Of a DNA stretch of 64,000 nt, positions 1,766 to 60,894 are shown one piece after another. The translations under genes were made by a program, and so were the position numbers. The notes under the pieces were generated by a model. The model was not told the origin of the DNA, ran no database searches, and saw only the letters and a list, made by a program, of their open reading frames with translations. The stretch comes from a virus, in IMG/VR virus record IMGVR_UViG_3300023179_000032, positions 57,983 to 121,982 of that record; one strand, 5' to 3'. The first letter of the stretch is position 1, and each line of letters starts with the position of its first letter.

Positions 1766-1774
1766 TATTTATTA
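1766..1774 (-). promoter_or_regulatory. Late promoter box for gp6
   Basis: The minus strand reads TAATAAATA, one base off the T4 late consensus TATAAATA. It lies about 19 nt upstream of the gp6 ATG, in the 45-nt gap after gp25. Recognition by gp55 plus the sliding clamp is inferred from T4. Confidence 0.55.
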
Positions 1775-6704: not shown

Positions 6705-7726
6705 TAGATGAACCCATCCTTCACATAACCACCGCTAAGGAACGTATTTAAGTTGAAAACACGCACTCTATTCCTACTATAGATAGGTAATAAGCTAATA
6801 TTGAGAGTACTTTGAGTGGGAACATGACTGTCATCATTGCCACTTTTTGAACTGATTGATCCATTATTTTGCGGTTTACTTTGGCTAACACCGTTAAACA
6901 TTTTACTGACATTACTTACAGTCCTTAACACATTTGATGCCTGTGTTAGTCCAGCTGCACTGGTCACATTGGCTAGTTTTTGTGCCATGCCACCTATGCT
7001 GCTGGTATTATCTTGAGCGAATCCACCCTCTGCTGTTCCAGGTGGATTTGTCATATTGGTTGTAATATAGTCAACTTCCTTAGGCAATGTCATACTAAAA
7101 CTCTTTACTACTACTGGTACATCTCTAAAAACATAATCACCGTAGGCATTAAAATATAAAATTATAGGCGGATTGCCAGCTGTGTTATCATCTCCGGTAA
7201 ACATTTTGGTCACTCCGCGTAAAAAATGCACACAGCTTAACCAGTATTGTGCTTGAACAGCATCCTCTACATAAAAATCTCCAGAAATTGAAATTTCACT
7301 TACTCTACTATTGACATAACTGATAAAAGTAAAATTATTATGAGTCACAGGAGTTTCGGTATAATTTGCCTGACTACTAATACTGATTGTTGGGGTGTAA
7401 GGAAAAACTAAACCTCCAGCTTTCTTCAATGGGGTAAATAAAGGACTACTAACAAATGGCATAACATTAGGGAAACTTAGTCGAACACGCCAATCAGCAG
7501 GATCATCACCAGATCCACTTTGTGCCGTAGCAGCCTCTTTAGGAGCAAAATTGTCAGCATTTAAGGGAATATTTTTACTTCTTAGACTACTGGCGAAATT
7601 GGACAATGAACCCAAAGCACCCACTGCACCCACTGCACCCCCTAGATTTTTGTTTAAAATACCAGTAGCTGCCCCTATAGCAGCAGTGGTAGCAGCAGCT
7701 TTTAAAGCACTATTTAGAAAACTCAT
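6704..7726 (-). CDS. gp48: Tail-tube cap / baseplate protein, gp48-like
   Basis: 340 residues. The N-terminal 45 residues are a Gly/Ala-rich helix (LKAAATTAAIGAATGILNK). From about 75 there is a tube-like domain (DWRVRLSFPNVMPFVSSPLF, then PYTPTISISSQANYTETPV and EISISGDFYVEDAVQAQYWL). The C-terminus (QSTLNISLLPIYSRNRVRVF) resembles the end of T4 gp48/gp54, where a strand is followed by an N-R motif. In T4 gp48 and gp54 cap the baseplate and start tube growth. First gene of the minus-strand baseplate operon, with a late-type box at 7745-7753 and AGGGG before the ATG. Assignment to gp48 rather than gp54 is uncertain. Confidence 0.62.
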   Translation of the reverse strand: MSFLNSALKAAATTAAIGAATGILNKNLGGAVGAVGALGSLSNFASSLRSKNIPLNADNFAPKEAATAQSGSGDDPADWRVRLSFPNVMPFVSSPLFTPLKKAGGLVFPYTPTISISSQANYTETPVTHNNFTFISYVNSRVSEISISGDFYVEDAVQAQYWLSCVHFLRGVTKMFTGDDNTAGNPPIILYFNAYGDYVFRDVPVVVKSFSMTLPKEVDYITTNMTNPPGTAEGGFAQDNTSSIGGMAQKLANVTSAAGLTQASNVLRTVSNVSKMFNGVSQSKPQNNGSISSKSGNDDSHVPTQSTLNISLLPIYSRNRVRVFNLNTFLSGGYVKDGFI

Positions 7727-7744: not shown

Positions 7745-7753
7745 TATTTATTT
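7745..7753 (-). promoter_or_regulatory. Late promoter box for the baseplate operon
   Basis: The minus strand reads AAATAAATA about 19 nt before the ATG of the gp48-like gene. It overlaps by two bases the -35 hexamer of the plus-strand promoter for gp55. Confidence 0.5.
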
Positions 7754-7799: not shown

Positions 7800-8621
7800 A
7801 TGTCAGTAAATTATCTTAATAATAAAGATTTATTAGAAGAAATACACAAGAGTAAAAATACATATTCGAGTTTTACACGCCCTGAATATAATCAATATGA
7901 CTTGATTCTAACCAGTTTAGAGCGTATTAATATACGAACAATAGCAGAAGCTAAAAGAAATCGCGCTAAAAGATTGGGAGATGAGGAATATCATCGGAGA
8001 AGACAGGCAGGTGAAAAAATCAAACAAAGTGAATGTGAAGTTGATTATAAAAAAATGGCCAAGACTGATCTAATATTTAGAATAATGACTTATGAACATA
8101 TCCCAGTGAATAAAACACGTAAGAAAAGTCAAAAAACTGAAGCAGATGGACACGATCGAGTAAATTTTCCACCTTTCCAACATTGGAAGTTTGATGAAAA
8201 TGACGAACTCATATGCGTAGGGAAAAGTCATTGGCGAGGTGGTATAAAAAGTGGCAAGTTCAGTAAGGATCATGGACAAATAACCAACACATTGGCCCGT
8301 ATGTATATCAAACTATGCGAACGTTATGCTACCCGTGGTAATGTGCGCGGCTATACCTATAACGATGAAATGCGAGCACAGGCCATACTACAACTCACAC
8401 AGGTTGGACTACAATTTAATGAAGCTAAATCGAATAATCCATTTGCTTATTTTACTGCTGCTGTTACTAATAGTTTTGTACGGATAATCAATATTGAAAA
8501 ACGTAATCAAAATATTAGGGATGATATACTAGAAATGAATGATATGGCCCCAAGTTATACTAGAACTAGCAATGCTGAACACGCTGCTAGCCTACGTAGA
8601 TTTGAAAGAGAAGAGGAATGA
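7800..8621 (+). CDS. gp55: Late-transcription sigma factor gp55
   Basis: 273 residues; T4 gp55 has 185, so there is an N-terminal extension of roughly 90 residues rich in Lys/Arg (RIRT..AKRNRAKRLGDEEYHRRR). The diagnostic part is the C-terminal third: GYTYNDEMRAQAILQLTQVG followed by FNEAKSNNPFAYFTAAVTNS and IINIEKRNQ. This corresponds to sigma region 2 of the T4 late sigma family. It directs host RNA polymerase with the sliding clamp to TATAAATA boxes, several of which are in this window. It is the first gene of a plus-strand operon behind a sigma70 promoter, and its stop overlaps the gp47 start (ATGA). Confidence 0.93.
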   Translation: MSVNYLNNKDLLEEIHKSKNTYSSFTRPEYNQYDLILTSLERINIRTIAEAKRNRAKRLGDEEYHRRRQAGEKIKQSECEVDYKKMAKTDLIFRIMTYEHIPVNKTRKKSQKTEADGHDRVNFPPFQHWKFDENDELICVGKSHWRGGIKSGKFSKDHGQITNTLARMYIKLCERYATRGNVRGYTYNDEMRAQAILQLTQVGLQFNEAKSNNPFAYFTAAVTNSFVRIINIEKRNQNIRDDILEMNDMAPSYTRTSNAEHAASLRRFEREEE

Positions 8622-9628
8622 GTTTATTTAAAAAGGCAGCATTTTTTACAGACATACACTTTGGCTTAAAAAGCAATAGCCAAACACACAATCAAGACTG
8701 TGAAGATTTTGTAGATTGGTTTATTGCCACTGCTAAAAAGAATAGATGTGATACTGGATTCTTTTTAGGTGATTGGCATCATAATCGAAACAGTCTTAAT
8801 ATTGTTACTATGGATTATAGTCTTAGGGCTTTGGAAAAACTGGGCAAGGCATTTGACCAGTTCTTTTTCTTTCCTGGTAATCATGATCTTTATTATAAAG
8901 ATAAACGAGATATCCATAGTGTAGAGTTTGGCAAATATATACCAGGGATCACAATAGTGCATCAGCCTATGACCTTAGGCGAAGTTACTATGTGTCCTTG
9001 GCTTGTAGGTGAAGAGTGGAAAACTGTGGGCAAGAAAGATGCCCGTTATATATTTGGTCATTTTGAACTGCCCAGTTTTTATATGAATGCCATGGTACAG
9101 ATGCCTGATCACGGTGAAATACAACTTGATCAGTTTAAACGGTATGAACTTGGCCTAAGTGGACATTTTCATAAACGCCAAAATAAACAGAATATGCACT
9201 ATATTGGTAATGCTTTTCCGCATAACTACGCAGATGCTTGGGATGATGACAGAGGCATGATGATCTTAGAGTGGGGCAGTGAGCCAGAATATCACGCTTG
9301 GCCTGACCAACCTACATTCAGAACTGTCAAATTGACTCAACTTATAGATGAACAAGATGCTATAATAAAACCTAAACAATATCTTAGAGTATTATTAGAC
9401 GTGGATATCAGTTATGAAGAAAGCGGACACATTAAGGAAGAATTTTTTAACAAATATGAGATTAGGGAGTTAACTTTGATTCCAGAAAAACGTGAAGTTG
9501 AATTTGCTAGTGATTTGGAAATTAAACAATTTGAAAGTGTAGATCAAATTGTTATGAATCAATTGACCAGTGTGGAAAGTGATACCTACAATGTTAAACT
9601 ATTAATGGACATTTATAACAATTTATGA
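8618..9628 (+). CDS. gp47: Recombination nuclease subunit gp47 (Mre11-like)
   Basis: 336 residues (T4: 339). The calcineurin-like phosphodiesterase motifs are all visible: DIH at 12-14, GDWHHNR at 51-57, GNHD at 87-90, a GHFE and a GHFHKR further on. These coordinate the two metal ions. gp47 pairs with gp46 to process DNA ends for recombination-dependent replication and host DNA breakdown. The gene overlaps gp55 upstream and gp46 downstream by ATGA, which indicates coupled translation and stoichiometric assembly. Nothing is missing from the active site. Confidence 0.95.
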   Translation: MSLFKKAAFFTDIHFGLKSNSQTHNQDCEDFVDWFIATAKKNRCDTGFFLGDWHHNRNSLNIVTMDYSLRALEKLGKAFDQFFFFPGNHDLYYKDKRDIHSVEFGKYIPGITIVHQPMTLGEVTMCPWLVGEEWKTVGKKDARYIFGHFELPSFYMNAMVQMPDHGEIQLDQFKRYELGLSGHFHKRQNKQNMHYIGNAFPHNYADAWDDDRGMMILEWGSEPEYHAWPDQPTFRTVKLTQLIDEQDAIIKPKQYLRVLLDVDISYEESGHIKEEFFNKYEIRELTLIPEKREVEFASDLEIKQFESVDQIVMNQLTSVESDTYNVKLLMDIYNNL

Positions 9629-11397
9629 TTAAGATACAGGATCTTAGTGTTAAGAATTTTATGAGCGTGGGTAATAATACCCAAGCCGTCGACTTCGGCC
9701 GAGAGCAATTAACTTTAGTATTAGGCGAAAATTTAGATCAAGGAGGTGATGATTCAGGAAGCCGTAATGGTACCGGGAAAACCACAATTGTCAATGCTCT
9801 AAGTTATGCGCTCTACGGCCAAGCATTAACCAACATCAAGAAAGATAACTTAGTCAATAAAACTAATGGCAAAGCCATGTTGGTCAAGTTAAACTTTGAA
9901 AAGAATGGTGTTGAATATCGTATTGAACGTGGACGTAGGCCTAATGTGTTTAAGTTTTTTGTCAATGGCTTAGAACAAGAAGTCATTGATGAAAGTCAAG
10001 GTGATGTAAGAGAAACACAGAAAGACTTAGATGAACTACTAGGTATGAGCCATGATATGTTTAAGCATATTGTGGCATTAAACACATACACAGAGCCATT
10101 TCTAAGTATGAGGGCTGCGGATCAACGTATGATCATTGAGCAATTATTAGGTATTACCCTGCTCAGTGATAAGAGTGAAAGTTTAAAAAATCAAATAAAA
10201 GAAACTAAGGATGCTATACAGCAAGAATCTGCTAATATTGAAGCAGTCAAACGCAGTAATGAACGTATTGAACAAAGTATAAACAGTCTACTTTCTAAAC
10301 AACGTGCTTGGCTCAGTCAACAAGAACAGGATTTAGAAAAGATTGCTAATAGTATTTTAGAATTACAGAGTATAGACATTGAACAAGAACTGGAACAACA
10401 TAATAAATTAAAAAGTTATCTTGAACTAAGTGCTCGTATTAATAGTTTGAACAAGGAAAAGGCCACATTAGAGACTGCTGTTAGTCAGGCTGAACGTAAT
10501 GTTAAGAATTATACTGTTGAATTAAAAAAATTAGCCAATAATAAATGTTCCAAGTGTGATCAAAACTTGCCAGGACATATGCACGATGAACTAAAAGCCG
10601 AGGCTGAAAACAATTTAGATGAAGCACAAACTTATCTTAACAATGTAGATTTTAAATTAACCAATGTGGTAGCAGAATTAGATGAGATTGGTGATATAAA
10701 TGGCAGACCTCAAACATTTTATGATACAATAGAAGAAGCATTAAAGCATCAAAACAATCTTGCTACACTGGAAAAAACTCTACTAAGTCGTAGTGAAGAA
10801 CGGGACCCATATCAAGAACAGATAGATGAACTGCGTAGTACAGCCATACAGGAAATTAGTTGGGACAATGTTAACCAACTTACTGAACTAAAAGAACATC
10901 AAGAATTTTTACTTAAATTATTGACCAGTAAGGATAGTTTTATTCGTAAAAAGATCATTGATCAGAACTTGGCCTACTTGAATAATAGGTTAAGTTATTA
11001 TTTGGATCGTATGGGACTACCCCATCAGGTTAGTTTTTTAAATGATCTTAATGTGGAAATCACACAGTTAGGACAGGATTTAGACTTTGATAACTTAAGC
11101 AGAGGTGAACGTAATAGATTAATCTTAGGATTAAGTTGGGCATTTAGAGATGTATGGGAAAGCCTATACCAGAATATTAATCTGTTGTTTATTGACGAAC
11201 TTATTGACAATGGCTTAGATGCCAGCGGTGTTGAAAGTGCTCTAGCAGTATTAAAGAAAATGGCCAGAGAACGCAATAAGAATATCTACTTGATCAGTCA
11301 TAAGGATGAACTAGTTGGACGAGTAAACAATGTATTAAAAGTTATTAAGGAAAATGGTTATACCAGTTATGCTAACGACTTGGAGATCATGGGGTGA
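9625..11397 (+). CDS. gp46: Recombination ATPase subunit gp46 (Rad50/SMC-like)
   Basis: 590 residues (T4: 560). Walker A is GSRNGTGKTT at 45-54, preceded by a small Gly/Asp-rich insertion. Two coiled-coil arms flank a zinc hook CSKC at 308-311. The ABC signature LSRGERNRLILGLSWAF lies near 490, Walker B NLLFIDELIDNGLD near 518, and the switch histidine is in YLISHKDE. It is the ATPase partner of gp47. Its stop overlaps a GTG start of the next small gene (GTGA). Confidence 0.95.
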   Translation: MIKIQDLSVKNFMSVGNNTQAVDFGREQLTLVLGENLDQGGDDSGSRNGTGKTTIVNALSYALYGQALTNIKKDNLVNKTNGKAMLVKLNFEKNGVEYRIERGRRPNVFKFFVNGLEQEVIDESQGDVRETQKDLDELLGMSHDMFKHIVALNTYTEPFLSMRAADQRMIIEQLLGITLLSDKSESLKNQIKETKDAIQQESANIEAVKRSNERIEQSINSLLSKQRAWLSQQEQDLEKIANSILELQSIDIEQELEQHNKLKSYLELSARINSLNKEKATLETAVSQAERNVKNYTVELKKLANNKCSKCDQNLPGHMHDELKAEAENNLDEAQTYLNNVDFKLTNVVAELDEIGDINGRPQTFYDTIEEALKHQNNLATLEKTLLSRSEERDPYQEQIDELRSTAIQEISWDNVNQLTELKEHQEFLLKLLTSKDSFIRKKIIDQNLAYLNNRLSYYLDRMGLPHQVSFLNDLNVEITQLGQDLDFDNLSRGERNRLILGLSWAFRDVWESLYQNINLLFIDELIDNGLDASGVESALAVLKKMARERNKNIYLISHKDELVGRVNNVLKVIKENGYTSYANDLEIMG

Positions 11398-12095: not shown

Positions 12096-12450
12096 GGCTA
12101 GGCACTGGCCAATTTCAGGTGCCCCTATACCTGGACCACGAGTCGCAGGGATGGAAAACTCACCGCCGTAGTGAGTACTCAGCCACTACCCGCAAGGATG
12201 ACGATCACTTAAATGCCGTGATTTGGCTGTTTGAACAGGATTAAAAGGCTAAAAGACGCTGTAAAAACGCAGCACGTTAGTATATGGTGATAGCATACTA
12301 TATAGTAACCGCCGTTGTATGAAGACTGTGCTCGAGGTACCGGACAACCGCCTCTGTAACGCACTAATGCTATGGACTGAGCAACTCGCATAATGTTCCT
12401 TTCGCCCTCGGATGGGCGAAGAGTGACGTCACAATCTGCATAATATATAA
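12096..12450 (+). ncRNA. Putative structured noncoding RNA, family not recognised
   Basis: There is no convincing reading frame in this interval. By hand count 12121-12420 is about 49% G+C, against roughly 35% for the flanking genes, as expected for a folded RNA in an AT-rich genome. Helices visible by eye: CAGGT/ACCTG (12116-12120 with 12129-12133); ACTCAC/GTGAGT (12158-12163 with 12171-12176); CAGCC/GGCTG (12180-12184 with 12225-12229) enclosing GATCAC/GTGATT (12203-12208 with 12218-12223); GCTG/CAGC (12258-12261 with 12270-12273); TAGTAT/ATACTA (12278-12283 with 12295-12300); GAGGT/GCCTC (12334-12338 with 12350-12354); TTCGCCC/GGGCGAA (12401-12407 with 12414-12420). A palindrome GTGACGTCAC follows at 12423-12432. 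It matches no tRNA, tmRNA, RNase P, 6S or group I intron core that I could recognise. The strand is assumed from the upstream operon. Confidence 0.6.
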
Positions 12451-12472: not shown

Positions 12473-12518
12473 TTTTTAGGACGATAAGTCCTAAAAAAGA
12501 GTGAGCGTAGCTTCACTC
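12473..12518. terminator. Two tandem hairpins, possible terminator
   Basis: First hairpin: TTTTTAGGAC (12473-12482), loop GATAA, GTCCTAAAAA (12488-12497), 10 perfect pairs. Second: GAGTGA...TCACTC (12499-12518) with an inner GC/GC pair and a bulged T. On the minus strand the first stem is followed by a pyrimidine-rich tract (CTTTTTCTTTCTTC), so it could end antisense transcripts coming from gp26. On the plus strand it would close the RNA region just before the late promoter at 12525. Confidence 0.6.
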
Positions 12519-12524
12519 TCACCG

Positions 12525-12532
12525 TATAAATA
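12525..12532 (+). promoter_or_regulatory. Late promoter TATAAATA abutting a start codon
   Basis: A perfect TATAAATA followed by CCAT and then the ATG at 12537. With T4 geometry transcription would begin at or within a base or two of the start codon, giving a leaderless message. The same spacing recurs at 20985-20997. Confidence 0.8.
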
Positions 12533-12536
12533 CCAT

Positions 12537-13460
12537 ATGAAAGTTAATGAATTATTATCCGAAACAGAGTTAGATGAATTTATTGGTACTCTTGGTGCTG
12601 CTTTAGGTCTTGGTGCTAAAGCAATAGGTGGATTGATGCGTGGAGCAAGAAATGTTCCTAAAAACATATCTAAAGTACCTGTACCTACAGTACCTACTGC
12701 TAAACAAGCAACTAAAATAGCAAAACAGCAATATAAAGATAGCTGGCTGAATAAATTGGGATTTTCTAAAAATACAACTGTTGGAAAATGGCGTATTGAC
12801 AGTATGAAAAAAGCGGTTCAAAAAAGAGGTATGAAAAATCAAGCAAAAGCAATACAGCACAATATGGAAGTAGCTACTTCTATACAGGACAAGATGGCTA
12901 ACTTGGGACTAAGTGTTGTAAGTACAGGCTTTTTCTTTTATGCTACTTATGATTATTTGATGAGTCGTTGGGCATTAGATCCTAATGATCCTAATTATGA
13001 TGCTCAATTGGCTAAGTTGAATGCTGAATTTCTAATGGGATTTCTTGTGCCTAAAGTAATAGGAAGTATAGGCAAAATTAGTTCTGGTCTAGTAGGTAGA
13101 TTAATGAAGATGACTGGGCTACCTAAAGCAGGCGAAATGGCTGCTAGATGGGGACGTCATGTATCACGTGTTGGTGAAGTAGCTGCTATGGCATGGCTTC
13201 GAACTGATGCTGGAAAAAAATGGTTTGCACAAACTTTTGCAGCAGCCATGGGGTTATTTACAGATGCAGGATATGCTTTAGAAGGTTTATTTAAACTTGT
13301 CAGTGATGTTGTTAAAGATCCTGAGGGCTTTGTAAAAGATTTATGGGATAAAATTAAATTGCCTAAGGTGCATGATGCTTATGCAGGAACATCAGCTGCT
13401 GGTAGTATAACAAAAATGGTTCCAGATATAGTTACATCAAAGGAAGGCCGCTTTTCTTAG
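12537..13460 (+). CDS. Protein of unknown function, 307 aa, late-expressed
   Basis: The start at 12537 is preferred over the in-frame GTG at 12501 because the late promoter lies between them and the N-terminus MKVNELLSETELDE is of a kind common in marine T4-like late genes. The protein is rich in Gly/Ala/Lys. It has an N-terminal amphipathic Gly/Ala stretch (IGTLGAALGLGAKAIGGLM), a basic region (about 30-110), one probable membrane helix (LSVVSTGFFFYATYDYLM, about 120-140), a second hydrophobic segment (FLMGFLVPKVIGSIG) and several amphipathic helices. No domain was recognised. It lies between the putative RNA and the hub gene gp26. Its 3' end overlaps the convergent small gene by 29 nt. A virion-internal or membrane-acting role is only a guess. 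Confidence 0.7.
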   Translation: MKVNELLSETELDEFIGTLGAALGLGAKAIGGLMRGARNVPKNISKVPVPTVPTAKQATKIAKQQYKDSWLNKLGFSKNTTVGKWRIDSMKKAVQKRGMKNQAKAIQHNMEVATSIQDKMANLGLSVVSTGFFFYATYDYLMSRWALDPNDPNYDAQLAKLNAEFLMGFLVPKVIGSIGKISSGLVGRLMKMTGLPKAGEMAARWGRHVSRVGEVAAMAWLRTDAGKKWFAQTFAAAMGLFTDAGYALEGLFKLVSDVVKDPEGFVKDLWDKIKLPKVHDAYAGTSAAGSITKMVPDIVTSKEGRFS

Positions 13461-13656: not shown

Positions 13657-14492
13657 TTTCGTTCGAAAAAACTTGATTGATCCAAAGTAACTACTACTTT
13701 ACTTTGATGTTCACATTCTGGACAGGTCACATCTTGTTGTGGAACATCCCATTGTGCTTTATTTTGTTCTAATTTATTTTTAATGTGTTTAAAATATTCT
13801 TTATCACTATTCTGAATCCATTCTTTGATAAAGGCTTTGTCAGTGACAATACCATCTGGAGTTTCAATAGCTTCAATACTTTGTTCAAATAAATTTAACT
13901 GTAAATTACTAATTCTTTGAAATACTTCGTTTTGACTTTTTATAGTACCGTCATCATCACCTTGACTTTCCATCCTATTAAGTTGACTCAGCATTTTTTG
14001 AAGTTTATAATTTTCAATATTAAACTCTGTAGTTTCCTCATAGCGTAGTGGCCTAATTACTACATTAAGATCATGGCAAGGAATCCTATTATCATAGGTT
14101 TGGCCGCTTAAGTATTCTATCACTCTGCTTAGATCAATTTCATAGTCATTAATACTTTGACAGTTTGGACAACGATGTGTTATGCTCATCATTGCCCCAA
14201 AGGTAGCAATTCGTATACTGGCCAACAAACAATCTACATCAATGCTGGGCATTTTCCAAGCATTTTTAATAGTAGGACAGCAACTTTCTATGGTTTTTAC
14301 CACTGCATCACCAGTAAAAAGTGCATCTGGAGTTTTCATAATGATTTCATCCATTCCAGTCATACCGTAGATTGGTATATTTACAGGTTTGCCTTCTAGA
14401 CTACCTTCTTCGTAAAATGCTCCTTTACTGGGCAAATCAATATGAATTTTAGGCTGTCTAAAATATTTTTGTAATGGATTTTTGTTGTTCAT
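13653..14492 (-). CDS. gp26: Baseplate hub protein gp26
   Basis: 279 residues (T4: 208). Family features: the N-terminal IDLPSKGAFYEEGSLEG, then GMTGMDEIIMKTPDALFTG and a central helix CLLASIRIATFGAMMSI. Two CxxC pairs, CPNCQ near residue 109 and CPECEH near the C-terminus, could form a zinc ribbon. gp26 belongs to the hub-assembly pathway and acts with the central baseplate plug. The gene stands alone with the small gene behind it, on the strand opposite to the tape measure. A perfect TATAAATA (14519-14526) lies 27 nt upstream of its ATG. Confidence 0.85.
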   Translation of the reverse strand: MNNKNPLQKYFRQPKIHIDLPSKGAFYEEGSLEGKPVNIPIYGMTGMDEIIMKTPDALFTGDAVVKTIESCCPTIKNAWKMPSIDVDCLLASIRIATFGAMMSITHRCPNCQSINDYEIDLSRVIEYLSGQTYDNRIPCHDLNVVIRPLRYEETTEFNIENYKLQKMLSQLNRMESQGDDDGTIKSQNEVFQRISNLQLNLFEQSIEAIETPDGIVTDKAFIKEWIQNSDKEYFKHIKNKLEQNKAQWDVPQQDVTCPECEHQSKVVVTLDQSSFFERN

Positions 14493-14518: not shown

Positions 14519-14526
14519 TATTTATA
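14519..14526 (-). promoter_or_regulatory. Late promoter TATAAATA for gp26
   Basis: A perfect late consensus on the minus strand, 27 nt upstream of the gp26 start codon. Together with the plus-strand box at 14501-14508 the two promoters point past each other, so their transcripts would overlap by about 25-30 nt. Confidence 0.75.
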
Positions 14527-19258: not shown

Positions 19259-20986
19259 ATGAGTTGGCGTAGATATTTTAAACCAGTTGATACTAGCAAT
19301 CAATCAGGACTGAGTGTTATAAGTGGCTTGGCCAATGGTCAAAGACCAGGACCAGCACGTAGTAATTACAGCAGTTTCCTGCCTGATATCTATGTTGGTA
19401 CACCAAATCGTATTGAAAGATATATGCAATACGATACCATGGATATGGATCCAGAAGTCAATGCTGCCCTAGATATTCTTGCAGAATTTTGTACCCAGAA
19501 GAATAAAGAAAATAATACTACATTTAGTCTAAGCTTCAAAGATCGTGCTACAAATACAGAAATTCGTGTGCTACGTGAATACTTACAACAATGGTTCAAG
19601 TTACAACAATTTGACACAAGATTTTTTCGTATAGTAAGAAATACATTTAAGTTTGGTGATAGTTGGTTTATTCGTGACCCAGAAACACAAAAATGGTTTT
19701 ATGTTGACCCAAGTAAGATGGTTAAAATCATTGTTAATGAAAGCGATGGAAAGAAGCCAGAACAGTATGTTATTCGTGACCTAAACCCAAATTTTAAAAA
19801 TCTTGTAGCCACACAGATACAACAAAGTCCTCATCAAACTAACAATCGTGGTAGTAATTATGTAGCTGGTGGAGGTATGGCTCGTGGTGCCACAGGTGCA
19901 TACCCAACACAATACGGTGATCGTTTTAGTATTAATGAGAATGAAGTGGCTATTGATGCTTCACATGTGATTCACCTCAGTTTAAGTGAAGGATTAGATA
20001 ATAACTATCCATTTGGTAATAGTTTGCTTGAACAAGTTTTTAAAGTTTATAAACAAAAAGAATTATTAGAAGATGCTATTTTAATCTATCGTATACAACG
20101 TGCTCCAGAGCGTAGAATATTCTATATTGATGTGGGAAATATGCCCAGTCATATGGCTATGAGCTTTGTAGAACGTGTTAAAAATGAAATACATCAGCGT
20201 CGTATTCCTAGTCAAAATGGCGGCGGTATGAATATTATTGACAGTGCCTACAATCCACTGAGCATCGGTGAAGATTACTTCTTCCCACAAACTGAAGGTG
20301 GTAGAGGCAGTAAGGTAGAAACACTAGCAGGTGGTCAAAATCTTGGTGAAATTGACGATTTAAGATATTTTACTAACAAATTGTTTAGAGCCTTGCGTAT
20401 ACCAAGCAGTTACTTGCCTAGTGGACCAGATGATGGACAACAACAATATAACGATGGTCGTGTAGGTACAGCCTATATTCAAGAATTGCGTTTTAACAAT
20501 TATTGTATGAGATTACAAAGTTTGTTGACCACAGCATTTGATGAGGAATTTAAGCGTTTTTTATACAATAGAGGTGTCAATATTGACACAAGTTTATTTG
20601 AGATTAAGTTTCAAAGTCCATTAAATTTTGCTGCATATCGTCAAAGCGAAATGGATGGACAAAGAATTAATACATTTAGCACCATACAACAAGTACCATA
20701 TATCAGTAAGCGTTTTGCCTTAAAGAGATTCTTAGGATTAACTGAAGAAGAGATGGCAGAAAATGAAAATCTATGGCGTCAAGAGAAAGGCATGGCACCT
20801 ATTACTGGTACTGATGCTAGTGGTGAATTACGTGGTGCAGGGTTGAGCGCAGCAGGAATTGACAGTGATCTTGAACTAGCAGGAGATACAGAAGCTCCTG
20901 AAGATATGACAGCTGGTATGGCTGGACAACCATTAGCAGCACCGCAAACAGGCATAGCAAGCCCAATGTCAGCTCCGCCAATGTAA
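19259..20986 (+). CDS. gp20: Portal vertex protein gp20
   Basis: 575 residues (T4: 524). Typical features: the N-terminal SWRRYFKPVD, then PDIYVGTPNRIERYMQYDTM and DMDPEVNAALDILAEFCTQK, the clip/stem region with GDSWFIRDPETQKWFYVDP, and a C-terminal LRIPSSYLPSG and ELRFNNYCMRLQ. gp20 forms the dodecameric portal that nucleates the prohead and through which DNA is packaged. A Gly/Ala/Pro-rich C-terminal tail is disordered. It is separated by only 5 nt from the tape-measure-like gene and followed immediately by a late promoter box at 20985. Confidence 0.95.
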   Translation: MSWRRYFKPVDTSNQSGLSVISGLANGQRPGPARSNYSSFLPDIYVGTPNRIERYMQYDTMDMDPEVNAALDILAEFCTQKNKENNTTFSLSFKDRATNTEIRVLREYLQQWFKLQQFDTRFFRIVRNTFKFGDSWFIRDPETQKWFYVDPSKMVKIIVNESDGKKPEQYVIRDLNPNFKNLVATQIQQSPHQTNNRGSNYVAGGGMARGATGAYPTQYGDRFSINENEVAIDASHVIHLSLSEGLDNNYPFGNSLLEQVFKVYKQKELLEDAILIYRIQRAPERRIFYIDVGNMPSHMAMSFVERVKNEIHQRRIPSQNGGGMNIIDSAYNPLSIGEDYFFPQTEGGRGSKVETLAGGQNLGEIDDLRYFTNKLFRALRIPSSYLPSGPDDGQQQYNDGRVGTAYIQELRFNNYCMRLQSLLTTAFDEEFKRFLYNRGVNIDTSLFEIKFQSPLNFAAYRQSEMDGQRINTFSTIQQVPYISKRFALKRFLGLTEEEMAENENLWRQEKGMAPITGTDASGELRGAGLSAAGIDSDLELAGDTEAPEDMTAGMAGQPLAAPQTGIASPMSAPPM

Positions 20987-20992
20987 TAAATA
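20985..20992 (+). promoter_or_regulatory. Late-type box overlapping the gp20 stop codon
   Basis: AATAAATA, followed by CTAT and then ATG at 20997. The four-base spacing to the start codon is the same as at 12525-12537 and predicts a leaderless transcript for the 80-aa gene. Confidence 0.6.
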
Positions 20993-20996
20993 CTAT

Positions 20997-21239
20997 ATGA
21001 TTCTCAGAGAGTTATTTTATCTAAATCCAGAAACACAAAAGATCAGCAATGACTTTAGGTTTGATTCTGCACGAGATTTAGAAGAATTACAGCGTAGTGA
21101 CACAAGAAAAACCAGACTTACCTTAAGACAGATAAATGATTTACGTAAGGCATCGGAATCGCACATTTTAGAAGTAGAAGAAGAATTAGAATTCTTTCAA
21201 AAAATGTATGGTACTGAACCTGCGCAGCCCACCGCTTAA
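20997..21239 (+). CDS. Small helical protein after the portal gene
   Basis: 80 residues, almost all charged helix: DSARDLEELQRSDTRKTRLT followed by LRQINDLRKASESHILEVEE. Marine T4-like phages commonly carry a short gene of this style between gp20 and the protease, as I recall, and a virion or prohead role is likely from context. It starts four bases after a late promoter box, with no room for a Shine-Dalgarno sequence in the transcript. Function not known. Confidence 0.7.
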   Translation: MILRELFYLNPETQKISNDFRFDSARDLEELQRSDTRKTRLTLRQINDLRKASESHILEVEEELEFFQKMYGTEPAQPTA

Positions 21240-25309: not shown

Positions 25310-26488
25310 ATGTCTGAACTACTAACAAACCGTTGGCAGGAGACAAAAGAGGCTCTACTCGAAGGCCTCCAAGGCACAAAAAGATCAGTGATGGGTGTAA
25401 CTTTAGAGAATACTCGTAAGTATCTCGCAGAAAGTGCTTCCGCTGGTACTACATCTGCTGGCAACGTCGCAACATTAAACCGCGTGATCCTTCCAGTGAT
25501 CCGTCGTGTTATGCCAACCGTTATTGCTAACGAGTTGGTTGGTGTACAACCACTAACTGGACCAGTTGGTCAAATCCATACATTGAGAGTTCGTTATGCT
25601 GACACAGTCGGTGCTAACGGCGAAATTGTTGGAGTAACTGCTGGTGAAGAGGCACTAAGTCCATTCAAGATCGCTGAGCAGTATTCCGGTGCTGCAACAG
25701 GAAAGGCTGCAAGCACAGCGACAATGGAAGGTATACCTGGTCGTAAAATGAGCATTCAAATCTTGAAACAAACAGTTGAAGCTAAGAGTCGTAAGCTATC
25801 AGCTCGTTGGACATTTGAAGCTGCTCAAGATATGCAGGCACAACATGGTATTGATGTAGAAGCAGAGATTATGGCTGCTCTAGCTCAAGAAATTACTGCT
25901 GAAATTGACCAAGAAATTCTAGCAAGTTTGGCTAACTTGGCCGGTAGTCCACAAGAAACATTTAATCAGGCCGCTGTAAGTGGTACAGCTACATTCGTTG
26001 GTGATGAACACGCCGCATTGGCAGTTCTAATCAATCGTGTTGCTAACATCATTGCTCAACGCACACGTCGTGGTGCTGCTAACTGGGCAGTTGTAAGTCC
26101 ATTTGCACTAACTATTCTACAAAGCGCAACAACAAGTGCTTTCGCACGTACTACAGAAGGTACATTCGAAGCTCCAACTAACACCAAGATGGTTGGTACA
26201 TTGAACAGCGCAATGAAGATTTATGTAAACACATATGCCAGCGACGAAGCTCCTATCCTTGTAGGTTACAAAGGATCAAGTGAGAGTGACGCTGCTGCAT
26301 TCTACTGCCCATACATTCCATTAATGAGCAGTGGTGTTGTATTAGATCCATCTACATTTGAACCAGTCGTATCATTTATGACACGTTATGGTTATGTAGA
26401 GTTGACAAATACAGCAAGCTCTCTTGGTAACGCTCAAGACTACTTGGGTAAAGTTGCACTAACAACAGCCAACGTCAAGTTTAGCTGA
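25310..26488 (+). CDS. gp23: Major capsid protein gp23 (compact form)
   Basis: 392 residues, clearly shorter than T4 gp23 (521). Family hallmarks: VQPLTGPVGQIHTLRVRYAD, EAKSRKLSARWTFEAAQDMQ, AEIDQEILASL and the C-terminal YVELTNTASSLGNAQDYLGK. A gp21-type cleavage site LAE follows TRKY, predicting cleavage after E41 and a mature protein of about 351 residues. The missing length compared with T4 is in the insertion region of the HK97 fold. Codon use is less AT-rich and more regular than in the neighbours, as expected for the most expressed late gene. A strong terminator follows at 26518. Confidence 0.95.
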   Translation: MSELLTNRWQETKEALLEGLQGTKRSVMGVTLENTRKYLAESASAGTTSAGNVATLNRVILPVIRRVMPTVIANELVGVQPLTGPVGQIHTLRVRYADTVGANGEIVGVTAGEEALSPFKIAEQYSGAATGKAASTATMEGIPGRKMSIQILKQTVEAKSRKLSARWTFEAAQDMQAQHGIDVEAEIMAALAQEITAEIDQEILASLANLAGSPQETFNQAAVSGTATFVGDEHAALAVLINRVANIIAQRTRRGAANWAVVSPFALTILQSATTSAFARTTEGTFEAPTNTKMVGTLNSAMKIYVNTYASDEAPILVGYKGSSESDAAAFYCPYIPLMSSGVVLDPSTFEPVVSFMTRYGYVELTNTASSLGNAQDYLGKVALTTANVKFS

Positions 26489-56246: not shown

Positions 56247-57233
56247 ATGGCAGCTCAACCCAAAGTTGAATTATTTAGTGGTCGTGTAAAGAAAGTCGCA
56301 GCTCGCGACATCATGACCAAAGGTTACGGTACCGGAGCAACTAGATATGAGGTACGTACCGAAGGCGAACCAAAAAGGGACGGCTACTTAAAGCTAAGTG
56401 AAGCTGAACCAAACCTGTTTGTTCCATGGCGTAGTGTAAATTCTGAAACCAATATTGCCACTGATGCTAATCCAAGATCAGTAGTAGGTATTGATAAGGT
56501 CAGCTACCCATCAGGTCAAACTCCAGCTAATCAAACTCTACGTGCTATGCTATTGTCTGATAATGCTGGTAACAGAACTTGGACTAATAAAATTGCTATT
56601 GATGCTAATGATAACATGATCATCAACAGTAACTTGTTTGTTAATGGTACAACAGTTGAAGTCAATGTACAACAAACCACAGTAGATGACCCAATCATTA
56701 CTATTGGTGGTGATATCGAAGATAATGTAACTGAAGATAATGGCCAAACAGATCGTGGTATTGAATTCCGTTGGTGGGATCCAACTGCTAACGATAACCA
56801 AGGTGCACCTAAATTAGGTTTCTTTGGATTTAAGGCTAGCACACGTACATTTACATTTATTCCCAGTGGTCGTAACGAAAATGAAATCTTTATTGGTGAT
56901 AGTGGTACAAGTGAGGGCGCTTTTGAAGTTCCAAACTTGAGCACACAGAATATTTTTACACCAACAGATGTTAATTTGCGTATAGCCCCAGGTGGCAGTG
57001 GTACAGTGGTCATTGAAAGTGCTATTACACAAGGTAGTTGGCGTGCTGATGTTATTGAAGTTGGATACGGTGGTACAGGTCGTGTTGAATTACCAGAAGG
57101 TGGTATACTATTTGGTAATGGTGATGACCCAGTTGGCGTAACTAACCCAGCATTGGCTAATGGTAGTTTATTACAGAGCGATTTAGGGGGTAGACCTTAC
57201 TTTAGCAACATAGTAGATTGCGGCACGTTCTAA
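56247..57233 (+). CDS. Fibre protein, 328 aa
   Basis: 328 residues. The N-terminus VELFSGRVKKVAARD and YLKLSEAEPNLFVPW is shared with the protein at 57380. Central element: MIINSNLFVNGTTVEVNVQQ then TTVDDPIITIGGDIEDN, typical of fibre attachment regions, followed by RGIEFRWWDP and KLGFFGFKASTRTFTFIPSG. The C-terminus (QGSWRADVIEVGYGGTGRVE, then NIVDCGTF) is a common marine fibre ending. Probably assembles with the following genes. Confidence 0.7.
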   Translation: MAAQPKVELFSGRVKKVAARDIMTKGYGTGATRYEVRTEGEPKRDGYLKLSEAEPNLFVPWRSVNSETNIATDANPRSVVGIDKVSYPSGQTPANQTLRAMLLSDNAGNRTWTNKIAIDANDNMIINSNLFVNGTTVEVNVQQTTVDDPIITIGGDIEDNVTEDNGQTDRGIEFRWWDPTANDNQGAPKLGFFGFKASTRTFTFIPSGRNENEIFIGDSGTSEGAFEVPNLSTQNIFTPTDVNLRIAPGGSGTVVIESAITQGSWRADVIEVGYGGTGRVELPEGGILFGNGDDPVGVTNPALANGSLLQSDLGGRPYFSNIVDCGTF

Positions 57234-57240
57234 CCAAAAT

Positions 57241-57248
57241 TATAAATA
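57241..57248 (+). promoter_or_regulatory. Late promoter TATAAATA
   Basis: Perfect consensus 7 nt after the stop of the 328-aa gene. Transcription would begin near 57254 and cover the short frame at 57281 and the 706-aa gene at 57380. Confidence 0.8.
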
Positions 57249-57280
57249 GTCTGTAAAGACTTTTTGAACAAAGAGTTAAA

Positions 57281-57379
57281 ATGATCCGCAATGATTTGTT
57301 ATCTATTATCTTGAGCAAAAAAGGGTCTGTACAAGGCCCGTTTTTGTATGTAGCGACAGGAAGGGGGTTTGAATCTTAA
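57281..57379 (+). CDS. Possible 32-aa leader peptide
   Basis: ATG at 57281 to TAA at 57377-57379, directly followed by the ATG of the 706-aa fibre gene at 57380. The product would be MIRNDLLSIILSKKG and on. Ribosome binding site is weak (AGAG). A terminator-like hairpin (57317-57345) lies within it, so it could be a real small gene, a coupling leader or chance. Confidence 0.3.
   Translation: MIRNDLLSIILSKKGSVQGPFLYVATGRGFES
57317..57345 (+). terminator. Terminator-like hairpin between fibre genes
   Basis: AAAAAAGGGTC, loop TGTACAA, GGCCCGTTTTT; one T-G pair and one mismatch. It would stop part of the transcripts that start at 57254 unless the 32-aa frame is translated across it. Confidence 0.6.
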
Positions 57380-59500
57380 ATGGCAGCACAACAAAAAGTA
57401 GAACTTTTTAGCGGCCGTGTTAAAAAGATTAAACCTACCAAGGTCAGCGAGCAGAGGTACGATTTCCTAAAACTTAGTGAAGCCGAGCCAGATTTAGGCG
57501 TTCCTGAAACTACTGACAGCGCAGACGTCAGACGTGTACTATTAACAGATAAGAACGGTAAACGCTACTGGAGTGACACACTTCAGATAGATGAAAATGG
57601 TGACTTTCAAAGCACTGGACAAATTCAAGCAGATGCTTTTCATACAGAAAGATTAGAAATAACTGATTCTGGCTTAAATGCTAGATTTAATAACGAAGAT
57701 ATAGAACTTAACACAAATGGTGATTTACAAACTACAGGATTAGTTAAGTTTGATACAGCAATGGGTGTAAAAATAGGCAACCCAGATCAAGGAGCACTAA
57801 TAAGTAGAGCAGTTGCAATGAATACTGCTACACCAGTTAGCAGAGGAATGGCACAAATGAATTTTATTTTAGGAAAGTTAGTACCAAAACCACCACCAAA
57901 TTTTCCTAAACTAAAAAGTGGCGCTAGCCAAACATTAGCTATACAAAGTGTAAGTACTTATCGTATGTGTAATTTCACACAGACTGATAATACTAGCAGC
58001 AATCGTAATGTAGCTGCTGGGTCTTCTGTAGCTCTTGTTCGTAGATCAAGTAGTTATACAACAAATTATATAGAAAATTGTGGTCCTGGTGATAGGGGTA
58101 CAGTTACAATTTATAAAAACGGTGTTGCTAGTGGTGCAAAAGCTTTAACTGATGGTCTACAGGAAGATGAAGATGAAACAGCAGGTAATTATTTACTAGG
58201 TACAGATAACGGCCTATTCAATAATTTACGCATTGCAGATGATAAAGACTACGCTCTTACAGCTAACCCAGCAATAAGTCCCCTATTTTGGCAAACATTT
58301 GATGCTAGAGGTGAAGGCACTATAACAGAAGGCTGGAATGAAGTATATATAACACATAATAATTTATTTCCAGAAACTGTTCCAGCTACAGTAGGAACAA
58401 CAAATATAGCCTATTGGTACTATGATGCTAGTACACCTGGTAGTCCAGTATTCAGTAATGTTACTTTTGCGCCAAGTGGAACAGCGCAGGTAATTTACAG
58501 CAGTGGAATACCTCACTACACCAATGCTCAAGAGTTTACACTAGGGTTTGACATTGCTAAATTGAGTGGTGATATGTACCCAACAGATAATACATTTATT
58601 ACTAGTTCAGGTGGTGGAGCATTTAATGCACCTACTACTTTGACCTATGCTAGTGCAGGAATAACTACACCGTTACCAAGGAATTATTTAGCTAGTACTA
58701 CATTAAGATTAACAACTACAGTAACCGTTAAAAATGGCGCCGGTTTAAGTAGTAGTCCAGTAAGCTTAACAGCAGACAATAGTTATGGTACAACTACACA
58801 GAATTTTACACCCACTAGTGGGGTATTATTCAAAACAGGAACAAGTAATACTGGTGTAGAAGAAACTAATATTTCAGTCCCATCGTCAGGTTTTGGCAGC
58901 GGAAGTGGTGCTGCTTATAGAATAATATTTGCAGGATCTACCGATACACCATCATTCACAGCCAGTGCCGCAGCTTGGAATAGTCAAAGCACTACATTAA
59001 ATACTTATGATGCTGTAGTAGTTGCTGCATCTACAGGACAAATGGTCCTTAAACACGATGATACAGATTATAGTACAGGATTTTTACCAGTAGGCCCAAA
59101 TTATAGTGCGGGAAGAACTGGTGCTCAATACTTTACTTTTAAGTTTGTTAGAGGTGCTATCAGTAAGTTTAATATCAGCATCAATGGAAAAATTAGTGGA
59201 TTGTGGGTGGCACTTCCAGGCAGTAGTATAGACACTACTAGTACATTGAATGGTTGGTTAAGAATGGATCAAGCCTATACTGGATCAGGTGTTCCTGGTG
59301 CAGGCACGGGAGGTAATAGTTCAAATGGATGTAGTATTGGTGGTACAGTGACATTAGGCAGTAATACTAATCAAAGTAGAACATGTACTTTTGGTACTTT
59401 AAGTAGTAGCGGAACTGGAACTACAGAAATTTATGTAAGAATTAAATTGGTAGCAGGTGATTCAGTTACAGCGTTAAGCATAGTAGGAGCAACTAACTAA
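57380..59500 (+). CDS. Large fibre/adhesin protein (706 aa), paralogue of 30465-33245
   Basis: 706 residues. N-terminus (VELFSGRVKKIKPTKVSEQR, YDFLKLSEAEPDLGVPET) matches the 328-aa protein at 56247, but the rest is related to the 926-aa protein at 30465: the hinge LGKLVPKPPPNFPKLKS, an anchor CGPGDRGTVTIYKNGV, and the C-terminal YSTGFLPVGPNYSAGRTGAQ, YFTFKFVRGAISKFNISING and IYVRIKLVAGDSVTALSIVG. So it is a chimera with the head of one fibre and the body of another. AGGAAGGGGG precedes the start codon at a rather long spacing of about 12 nt. Last base overlaps the next ATG. Confidence 0.7.
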   Translation: MAAQQKVELFSGRVKKIKPTKVSEQRYDFLKLSEAEPDLGVPETTDSADVRRVLLTDKNGKRYWSDTLQIDENGDFQSTGQIQADAFHTERLEITDSGLNARFNNEDIELNTNGDLQTTGLVKFDTAMGVKIGNPDQGALISRAVAMNTATPVSRGMAQMNFILGKLVPKPPPNFPKLKSGASQTLAIQSVSTYRMCNFTQTDNTSSNRNVAAGSSVALVRRSSSYTTNYIENCGPGDRGTVTIYKNGVASGAKALTDGLQEDEDETAGNYLLGTDNGLFNNLRIADDKDYALTANPAISPLFWQTFDARGEGTITEGWNEVYITHNNLFPETVPATVGTTNIAYWYYDASTPGSPVFSNVTFAPSGTAQVIYSSGIPHYTNAQEFTLGFDIAKLSGDMYPTDNTFITSSGGGAFNAPTTLTYASAGITTPLPRNYLASTTLRLTTTVTVKNGAGLSSSPVSLTADNSYGTTTQNFTPTSGVLFKTGTSNTGVEETNISVPSSGFGSGSGAAYRIIFAGSTDTPSFTASAAAWNSQSTTLNTYDAVVVAASTGQMVLKHDDTDYSTGFLPVGPNYSAGRTGAQYFTFKFVRGAISKFNISINGKISGLWVALPGSSIDTTSTLNGWLRMDQAYTGSGVPGAGTGGNSSNGCSIGGTVTLGSNTNQSRTCTFGTLSSSGTGTTEIYVRIKLVAGDSVTALSIVGATN

Positions 59501-60894
59501 TGGCTGTCGTTGATAAACAAAAGGTTGACTTACTCTATAAGAAACTTTTCGGTGTAACCAAAACTGATTTTAGTACACTTAAAGGTGCTAGTAACGAATC
59601 TATAGCCAGCCCTGCACTGATACGTGGTGACACTGTTTGGACACAGTCCAATAGCATTATTAAAGCTCCGGCATTACCAGCAGCAGTACCCAGTATTGTT
59701 GAAAGTAGAACAATACAATGTGTACCAGATGAAACAACTACACCTATAGGTGGTGTTTACCCAACCTGGATAGCCAAAGCAGGTGCTACAAGTTATACAA
59801 ATTGGATTCCACCAGAGTTTGGCCCTGGGTATTTGATTGAAGTTTTTATAGGTAATCCTGCTAGTGGTGGTACTAAAATATTTGATGCTGGTATTAATGA
59901 CAAAGGTGCATACTATTTTGACTATATGTCAGGCGTACTTAATTTTACTAATTATTTAGATAATAGTAATAGTAGTAATGTAATACCAGATGGTCTAAGT
60001 GGTAATAGTATTTGGGTAAGAGGTTATAGATATATTGGTTTTGTTGGTATTACAGATCAACAAGAGGGTAAATTTGGTAATTTACAATTAATAGATAATA
60101 CAATTACAGCTATCAATACAGTTGCTAATCAACCAGCACCTGGTGATGTTATAATTAAACCAAGATTAAGTGGTTTTGTTAGGTTACAAGGTAGTAGAGT
60201 TACTCAACACGCTAGTGATACTACTACTGGTTATGATAGTGGCCAACAATTCAATACCATATACGAAAAAACAAGTTTATTAGCTAGAGCTTCAACACTG
60301 AATGAACAAGAAAAAGAAGCTACTTTAGATGGATTAACCCCTGGTGCAACAAACAGATTTGTACTGGCGAATAATTATACTTACAAAATTAATGTTAATG
60401 TGACAGCCAAATTAGATGGAGGCACAGATAGTGCCATATGGAACATAGATTTTTTAGCAAGCAGAGGAGCAAGTGCATCGACAACACAGATAATTGGAAA
60501 TACTATAACTGAGAAAGTAGCAGGTAGTGCAAGCACTGCTGTTACTATAGTTAATGTTGCTGCTGGAAGTTTTGTGGTTAACAAAGTTTATAAAATTAAA
60601 ACATTAGGTACTACAACAGTTTGGGCCGACGTGGCCTTAAACAATGCTGTAGATTTTGAAGTAGGTACAGTGTTTACAGCAAAGGCTGCTGGTGTAGGAA
60701 ATGGCACTGCTGATGAATACTTAACACCTGCTGAACAATTGGCTAAGAGTTGGGGTGTAAGAGCCTTAGCAGACAAAGATAATGGTTTAATAAAAATTTT
60801 AGTTAAGGGACCTGAAAAAATTACAGGATCGGATCCAGATAAAACCATCAAATGGTTAGTAGCGATAAATACATTGGACATTTTTGAGACCTAA
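59500..60894 (+). CDS. Fibre protein (464 aa), paralogue of 33258-35369
   Basis: 464 residues. The N-terminal 175 match the 703-aa fibre (VDLLYKKLFGVTKTD, SNESIASPALIRGDTVW, NWIPPEF, KGAYYFDYMSGVLNF). It lacks the long shaft repeats and instead ends in a compact body with an inserted module AAGSFVVNKVYKIKTLGTTT then WADVALNNAVDFEVGTVFTA and GVGNGTA, the same type as in the giant protein. It follows the 706-aa gene with 1-nt overlap, as the 703-aa gene follows the 926-aa gene after 12 nt. Likely a short adhesin partner. Confidence 0.7.
   Translation: MAVVDKQKVDLLYKKLFGVTKTDFSTLKGASNESIASPALIRGDTVWTQSNSIIKAPALPAAVPSIVESRTIQCVPDETTTPIGGVYPTWIAKAGATSYTNWIPPEFGPGYLIEVFIGNPASGGTKIFDAGINDKGAYYFDYMSGVLNFTNYLDNSNSSNVIPDGLSGNSIWVRGYRYIGFVGITDQQEGKFGNLQLIDNTITAINTVANQPAPGDVIIKPRLSGFVRLQGSRVTQHASDTTTGYDSGQQFNTIYEKTSLLARASTLNEQEKEATLDGLTPGATNRFVLANNYTYKINVNVTAKLDGGTDSAIWNIDFLASRGASASTTQIIGNTITEKVAGSASTAVTIVNVAAGSFVVNKVYKIKTLGTTTVWADVALNNAVDFEVGTVFTAKAAGVGNGTADEYLTPAEQLAKSWGVRALADKDNGLIKILVKGPEKITGSDPDKTIKWLVAINTLDIFET

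Follow-up and report, generated by a model that had tools for sequence, protein, structure and literature searches.

Putative leaderless late messages from gp55-type promoters in a T4-like giant phage and its relatives

In a T4-like giant phage, late promoters of the gp55 type appear to start mRNAs at the AUG of a set of late genes, or within 1–2 nt of it, which would make these late messages leaderless; we give this reading a probability of roughly 0.83. The window, i.e. the whole stretch of 64,000 nucleotides that was analysed, corresponds to bases 57,983–121,982 of a 121,982-base IMG/VR virus record. The two sites for which the arrangement was originally predicted, TATAAATA-CCAT-ATG at 12525–12539 and AATAAATA-CTAT-ATG at 20985–20999, are both present on the plus strand. 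They lie among the following features (window coordinates):

7800–8621, plus strand: late-transcription sigma factor, gp55 homologue (phrog_12791, E=2e-75; phrog_234, E=1e-22)
8618–11397: SbcD/SbcC-like (gp47/gp46) genes
12473–12497, plus strand: terminator-like hairpin with a 10-bp stem, A/T-flanked, upstream of the first promoter (12525)
12498–12519, plus strand: second hairpin, GAGTGA-GCGTAGC-TTCACTC, directly before the 12525 box
12525–12532, plus strand: late-promoter box TATAAATA, 4 nt before the ATG
12533–12536, plus strand: 4-nt spacer CCAT
12537–13460, plus strand: gene for a 307-aa protein with the N-terminus MKVNELLSE, homologues of which occur at the same place in relatives
19259–20986, plus strand: portal protein gp20, directly upstream of the second site (20985)
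20985–20992, plus strand: late-promoter box AATAAATA, overlapping the last two bases of the gp20 stop codon (20984–20986)
20993–20996, plus strand: 4-nt spacer CTAT
20997–21239, plus strand: gene for an 80-aa protein in the T4 gene-67 position (MILRELFYLNPET), its box and 4–5 nt spacing kept in relatives
25310–26488: major head protein

The gp55 product was matched in PHROGs and had no match in Pfam. Since its portal is 92% identical to that of G001 (399,796 bases), the closest large relative among those compared, the record probably represents part of a genome of about 400 kb. The virion genes include a single ORF of 6792 aa (35430–55808, plus strand), with an ORF of 4697 aa upstream of it in the same record. 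Two adjoining genes (56247–57233 and 57380–59500) share the N-terminus MAAQ(P/Q)KVELFSGRVK and are apparent paralogues.

The 8-bp boxes would be late promoters of the T4 type (NATAAATA), recognized by host RNA polymerase with the gp55 of the phage; NATAAATA boxes stand upstream of late genes, and gp55 is encoded in the window. A single sigma box would be used in two fixed geometries in this phage lineage. In the ordinary one, the box would lie 15–30 nt before the ATG and the leader would carry a Shine-Dalgarno (SD) sequence, as in these three cases from the window:

1766–1773, minus strand: box AATAAATA, 18 nt from the ATG of the next gene on that strand (record 56262–59729, partly outside the window), with AAGGA
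7745–7752, minus strand: box AATAAATA, 18 nt from the ATG at 7726, with the SD AAGGGG
14519–14526, minus strand: box TATAAATA, 26 nt before the ATG at 14492, with the SD GGAG

In the second geometry, which includes the sites at 12525 and 20985, the box lies 4–5 nt before an ATG start and there is no SD. Transcription would then begin at the A of the ATG or within 1–2 nt of it, and the message would be translated by recognition of its 5'-terminal AUG. From the sequence we infer the exact 5' end, the dependence on gp55 and the leaderless mode of translation. The T4 late box is numbered with its first bases at −13/−12 (PMC2988020); it covers −13 to −6, and +1 is therefore the sixth base after the box. 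Counted in this way, +1 falls on the A of the ATG with a 5-nt spacer, the commonest in the relatives, and on the T with the 4-nt spacers of the window. The original prediction, that a start about 6 nt after the box would be the start codon itself, thus holds to the base for 5-nt spacers, whereas the window's own sites would need initiation 5 nt after the box, one base earlier than in T4. A leader of 3–9 nt would leave no room for an SD and yet not make the message leaderless, which matches a range of box distances that is nearly empty in these genomes.

This range emerged from the distances between boxes and gene starts. Starts were taken from a simple purpose-made caller, and many of them are supported by conservation and by deposited annotation. 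The scored box was ATAAATA, counts cover boxes within 53 nt upstream of a gene start, and P values were calculated against a uniform spread over 0–53 nt. For 17 of the 18 ATAAATA sites in the record, a gene on the same strand starts no more than 60 nt downstream. Counting the pattern genome-wide, as the original prediction had proposed, revealed strong enrichment at starts: of the 15 upstream boxes in the record, five stand at 4–5 nt from the ATG where chance would give 0.56 (P=1.5e-4), and the next nearest box is at 15 nt. Three relatives of about 330–400 kb (G001, G002 and G003) have the same two-peak distribution, with 43 of 166 boxes at 4–5 nt. Together, the four related genomes have 181 upstream boxes, 48 of them at 4–5 nt (P=3e-27) and a single one at 9–14 nt (P=1e-8). 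The prediction had also named a lack of genome-wide enrichment as evidence against itself; enrichment was found in 80 related loci, in G001, G002 and G003 and in two phages of SAR11. The pattern WATAAATACNATATG has two matches in the window and two in the whole 121,982-base record, both at gene starts, compared with none for the reversed pattern and a mean of 0.00 for shuffles. Because ATAAATA read backwards is itself, a plain count of the reversed box is no control, and we relied on other A/T 7-mers, reversal of the full pattern and the distance distributions. No comparable genome-scale peak was seen for the remaining 7-mers of the same composition (five A, two T), except those able to overlap the box.

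The two distance modes differ in their SD sequences: boxes at 4–8 nt (few of them at 6–8) go without an SD, and those at 15–30 nt with one. Over the four genomes, an SD was found in 5 of 57 near-box genes (and in none of this record's five near-box genes) as against 71 of 98 genes with a leadered box; the loss is in part a matter of geometry, as a near box takes up the place of the SD. ORFs of at least 60 codons that begin 4 or 5 nt after a box start with ATG in 57 cases in these genomes, and codons other than ATG were found there at 1–3 each per genome. That 60 of 61 near-box genes start with ATG is a weak point, ATG being usual at most genes. The enrichment, the bimodality, the complementarity to SD use and the gp55 gene in the window all argue for the leaderless reading.

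The site after the portal shows how well the arrangement is conserved. Among 80 viral contigs gathered via the portal, four end before the site, and in nearly all the gene after the portal starts with MILRELFY. The box precedes that ATG in at least 72 of the 76 relatives with this start, and the spacing is 4–5 nt in 71 of the 73 scored sites (the 72 relatives and the window). As many as 40 different spacer sequences occur among these sites, the spacing being kept while the letters drift. Codons 2–8 (ILRELFY) vary synonymously right after the ATG while the peptide stays, so this ATG is a real start. As for the exceptions, the site is present but its bases are partly unread in L018, which is outside the 72; the boxes of L082 and L084, at 5 and 6 nt, each carry one mismatch; and L070 has a different gene after the portal, with an SD. 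The 80-aa protein had no match in a protein search against named phages.

The 12537 gene provides the most telling evidence that near spacing and SD are alternatives. Its 307-aa product had no match in a family search, in a protein search against named phages or in the viral-contig scan, and relatives of the locus were reached through the portal instead. Homologues lie about 4–5.6 kb upstream of the portal and start with MK..(D/E)(I/L)(I/L).E; BLAST ties the window protein to those in L017, L012 and L015, and the others are assigned by position and N-terminus only. Eight have the box at 4–7 nt and no SD (L012, L014, L015, L017, L020, L031, L040 and L053), five have it at 18–24 nt with an SD-like sequence (L029, L032, L042, L056 and L064), and no intermediate distance was seen among them. 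It is this switch of homologues between two states that points to near spacing and SD as alternatives. We propose that the 12537 product is a head-internal protein. The T4 capsid-targeting peptide ends in a protease site, hydrophobic-x-E. T4 internal proteins, with the capsid-targeting sequence MKTYQEFIAE, resemble several near-box genes in the short N-terminal M(K/R)..E(L/I)(L/I).E, to which MKVNELLSE conforms as a motif chosen after the fact; unlike near-box genes, those of the T4 capsid-targeting proteins are preceded by an SD and lack a neighbouring late box. M(K/R)..(E/D)(L/I)(L/I).E is frequent at near-box starts, including L003:7795–8634 (minus strand), window 12537 and genes of G001 and G003, and the association of this post hoc motif with near boxes is significant in G000, G001 and G003 but not in G002.

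An unlikely alternative accepts the late promoters as real but has translation proceed mainly from read-through mRNA, coupled to the upstream stop, with the near-ATG RNA minor or untranslated. This would suit the second site, where the box overlaps the gp20 stop, the ATG at 20997 lies 10 nt past it and transcripts begun further upstream could also cover the gene, as well as the many near-box genes that begin less than 40 nt after another gene. However, the 12537 gene and others are hundreds of nt from the previous gene, and read-through into the 12537 gene is less likely because a strong terminator-like hairpin and the second hairpin precede its box. Coupling also leaves both the fixed 4–5 nt spacing and the empty 9–14 nt zone unexplained.

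That ATAAATA is no promoter at all but an A/T-rich element keeping the start unstructured for SD-independent initiation seems quite improbable. Such an element would fit near-box genes without an SD, but A/T 7-mers of the same composition have no equivalent peak, the same 7-mer stands 18–28 nt upstream of other genes, homologues included, that do have an SD, and ATAAATA is the known late box of the T4 family (PMC2988020, PMC2984593). We find it hardly credible that the true starts are elsewhere, the boxes being inside coding sequence or serving a downstream start. The 12525 frame is indeed open back to an in-frame GTG at 12501; the stretch from this GTG, however, forms a hairpin, the conserved N-termini MK..(E/D)(L/I)(L/I).E and MILRELFY begin exactly at the ATG in relatives, and changes within MILRELFY are synonymous. 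Chance placement of a frequent A/T-rich word at start codons might be thought of in a genome of 64% A+T, in which TATAAATA alone is not over-abundant (3 seen against 9 expected), the signal being its position. This is refuted by the P values for the record (1.5e-4) and the four genomes (3e-27) and by conservation in more than 70 relatives.

The near-box arrangement extends to phages of the marine bacterium SAR11. Pelagiphage HTVC008M has 10 matches against 2 in the control; nine of its called genes, including those of the tape measure, the DNA end protector and the tail-tube cap, have a box at exactly 5 nt, and all seven near boxes in its first 50 kb are at deposited gene starts. In pelagiphage Mosig there are 9 matches against none in the control, with six of seven sites in the stretch read coinciding with deposited gene starts, and the OM43 methylophage Melnitz has a weak presence (4 matches against 0). 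The boxes of these three phages lie mostly 5 nt before the ATG, as in the clade of the window, but the phages are distant relatives with smaller genomes and their spacing is almost strictly 5. The near-box arrangement was absent or at control level in T4, KVP40, Syn9, S-PM2, S-RIM8, P-TIM40, RaK2, Kaldavass, PHA46, PA5oct, Phosso, phiM12, Cr30, N34 and F352.

T4 late promoters, served by gp55, gp33 and the gp45 sliding clamp, have in common with those described here the NATAAATA box, its place before virion genes and gp55 itself, which has a homologue in the window. In T4, however, the box is 12–35 nt before the ATG with an SD at 24 of 25 such genes, and under identical treatment none of its 28 upstream boxes was at 4–8 nt. 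Where the original prediction leans on T4 alone it calls for caution; because T4 itself is without near-box genes, the arrangement is a trait of particular lineages rather than T4 behaviour. Cyanophage late promoters (S-PM2 and Syn9; PMC2984593) have the same NATAAATA box, but Syn9, S-PM2, S-RIM8 and P-TIM40 show no excess of boxes 4–5 nt from the ATG. In leaderless genes of bacteria and in the leaderless cI gene of lambda, transcription begins at the start codon or beside it and there is no SD, as proposed here. About a quarter of transcripts in mycobacteria are leaderless (PMC4633059). Unlike in the bacterial and lambda cases, a phage late sigma would here make a regular class of late genes beside a leadered class with the same box.

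Two observations bear on the host. A Polynucleobacter-1 RNA (Rfam RF01718, 102.8 bits) is located at window 12097–12232 on the plus strand, just upstream of the 12537 gene. Of 17 related viral contigs tested, 16 have the RNA on the upstream side of the portal. This RNA, which the phage clade encodes, is listed from Burkholderiales and from fresh water and estuaries (PMC2864571). The HemC-like near-box gene of G001 (G001:C1:273181–274113, minus strand) is nearest to Rhodocyclaceae and other Betaproteobacteria (57%). Together, the syntenic RNA and the HemC-like gene suggest a freshwater betaproteobacterium as host. By eye, another near-box gene of G001 (350077–350403, minus strand) is IscA-like and, like the HemC-like gene, of a host-metabolism type. 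A freshwater-2 RNA (Rfam) is found about 4–5 kb downstream of the portal in L023 (14473–14544), L056 (16834–16916) and L029 (16018–16094). The N-terminus of a near-box gene with 5-nt spacing in L003 (12562–13794, plus strand) looks by eye like a class III nucleotide cyclase, with no PHROGs match, and HTVC008M also has an annotated cyclase gene.

The late promoter and leaderless translation are each already known. We found no report of leaderless T4-like late transcripts in the openly accessible literature, which is weak evidence of novelty. For gene calling, the start should be accepted where a gene without an SD has NATAAATA 4–5 nt before an ATG. The same spacing offers a simple means of locating late promoters and genuine start codons in pelagimyophages, for which a 2020 study reported that the usual method had failed to predict late promoters (PMC7029224), and HTVC008M is a cultured phage in which the class is testable. 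More tentatively, some T4-like phages may have two translational classes of late genes under one sigma, the leaderless class, translated by 5'-AUG initiation, belonging to phages of planktonic hosts whose genomes are small and streamlined, a link that we hypothesize. If this is true, the class arose or was kept in phages of SAR11, OM43 and probably freshwater Betaproteobacteria, and would allow late genes to be expressed through 5'-AUG initiation, perhaps under conditions that limit the ordinary mode. With this finding the T4 superfamily gains a systematic class of late genes, probably leaderless, that occurs in very abundant aquatic phages.
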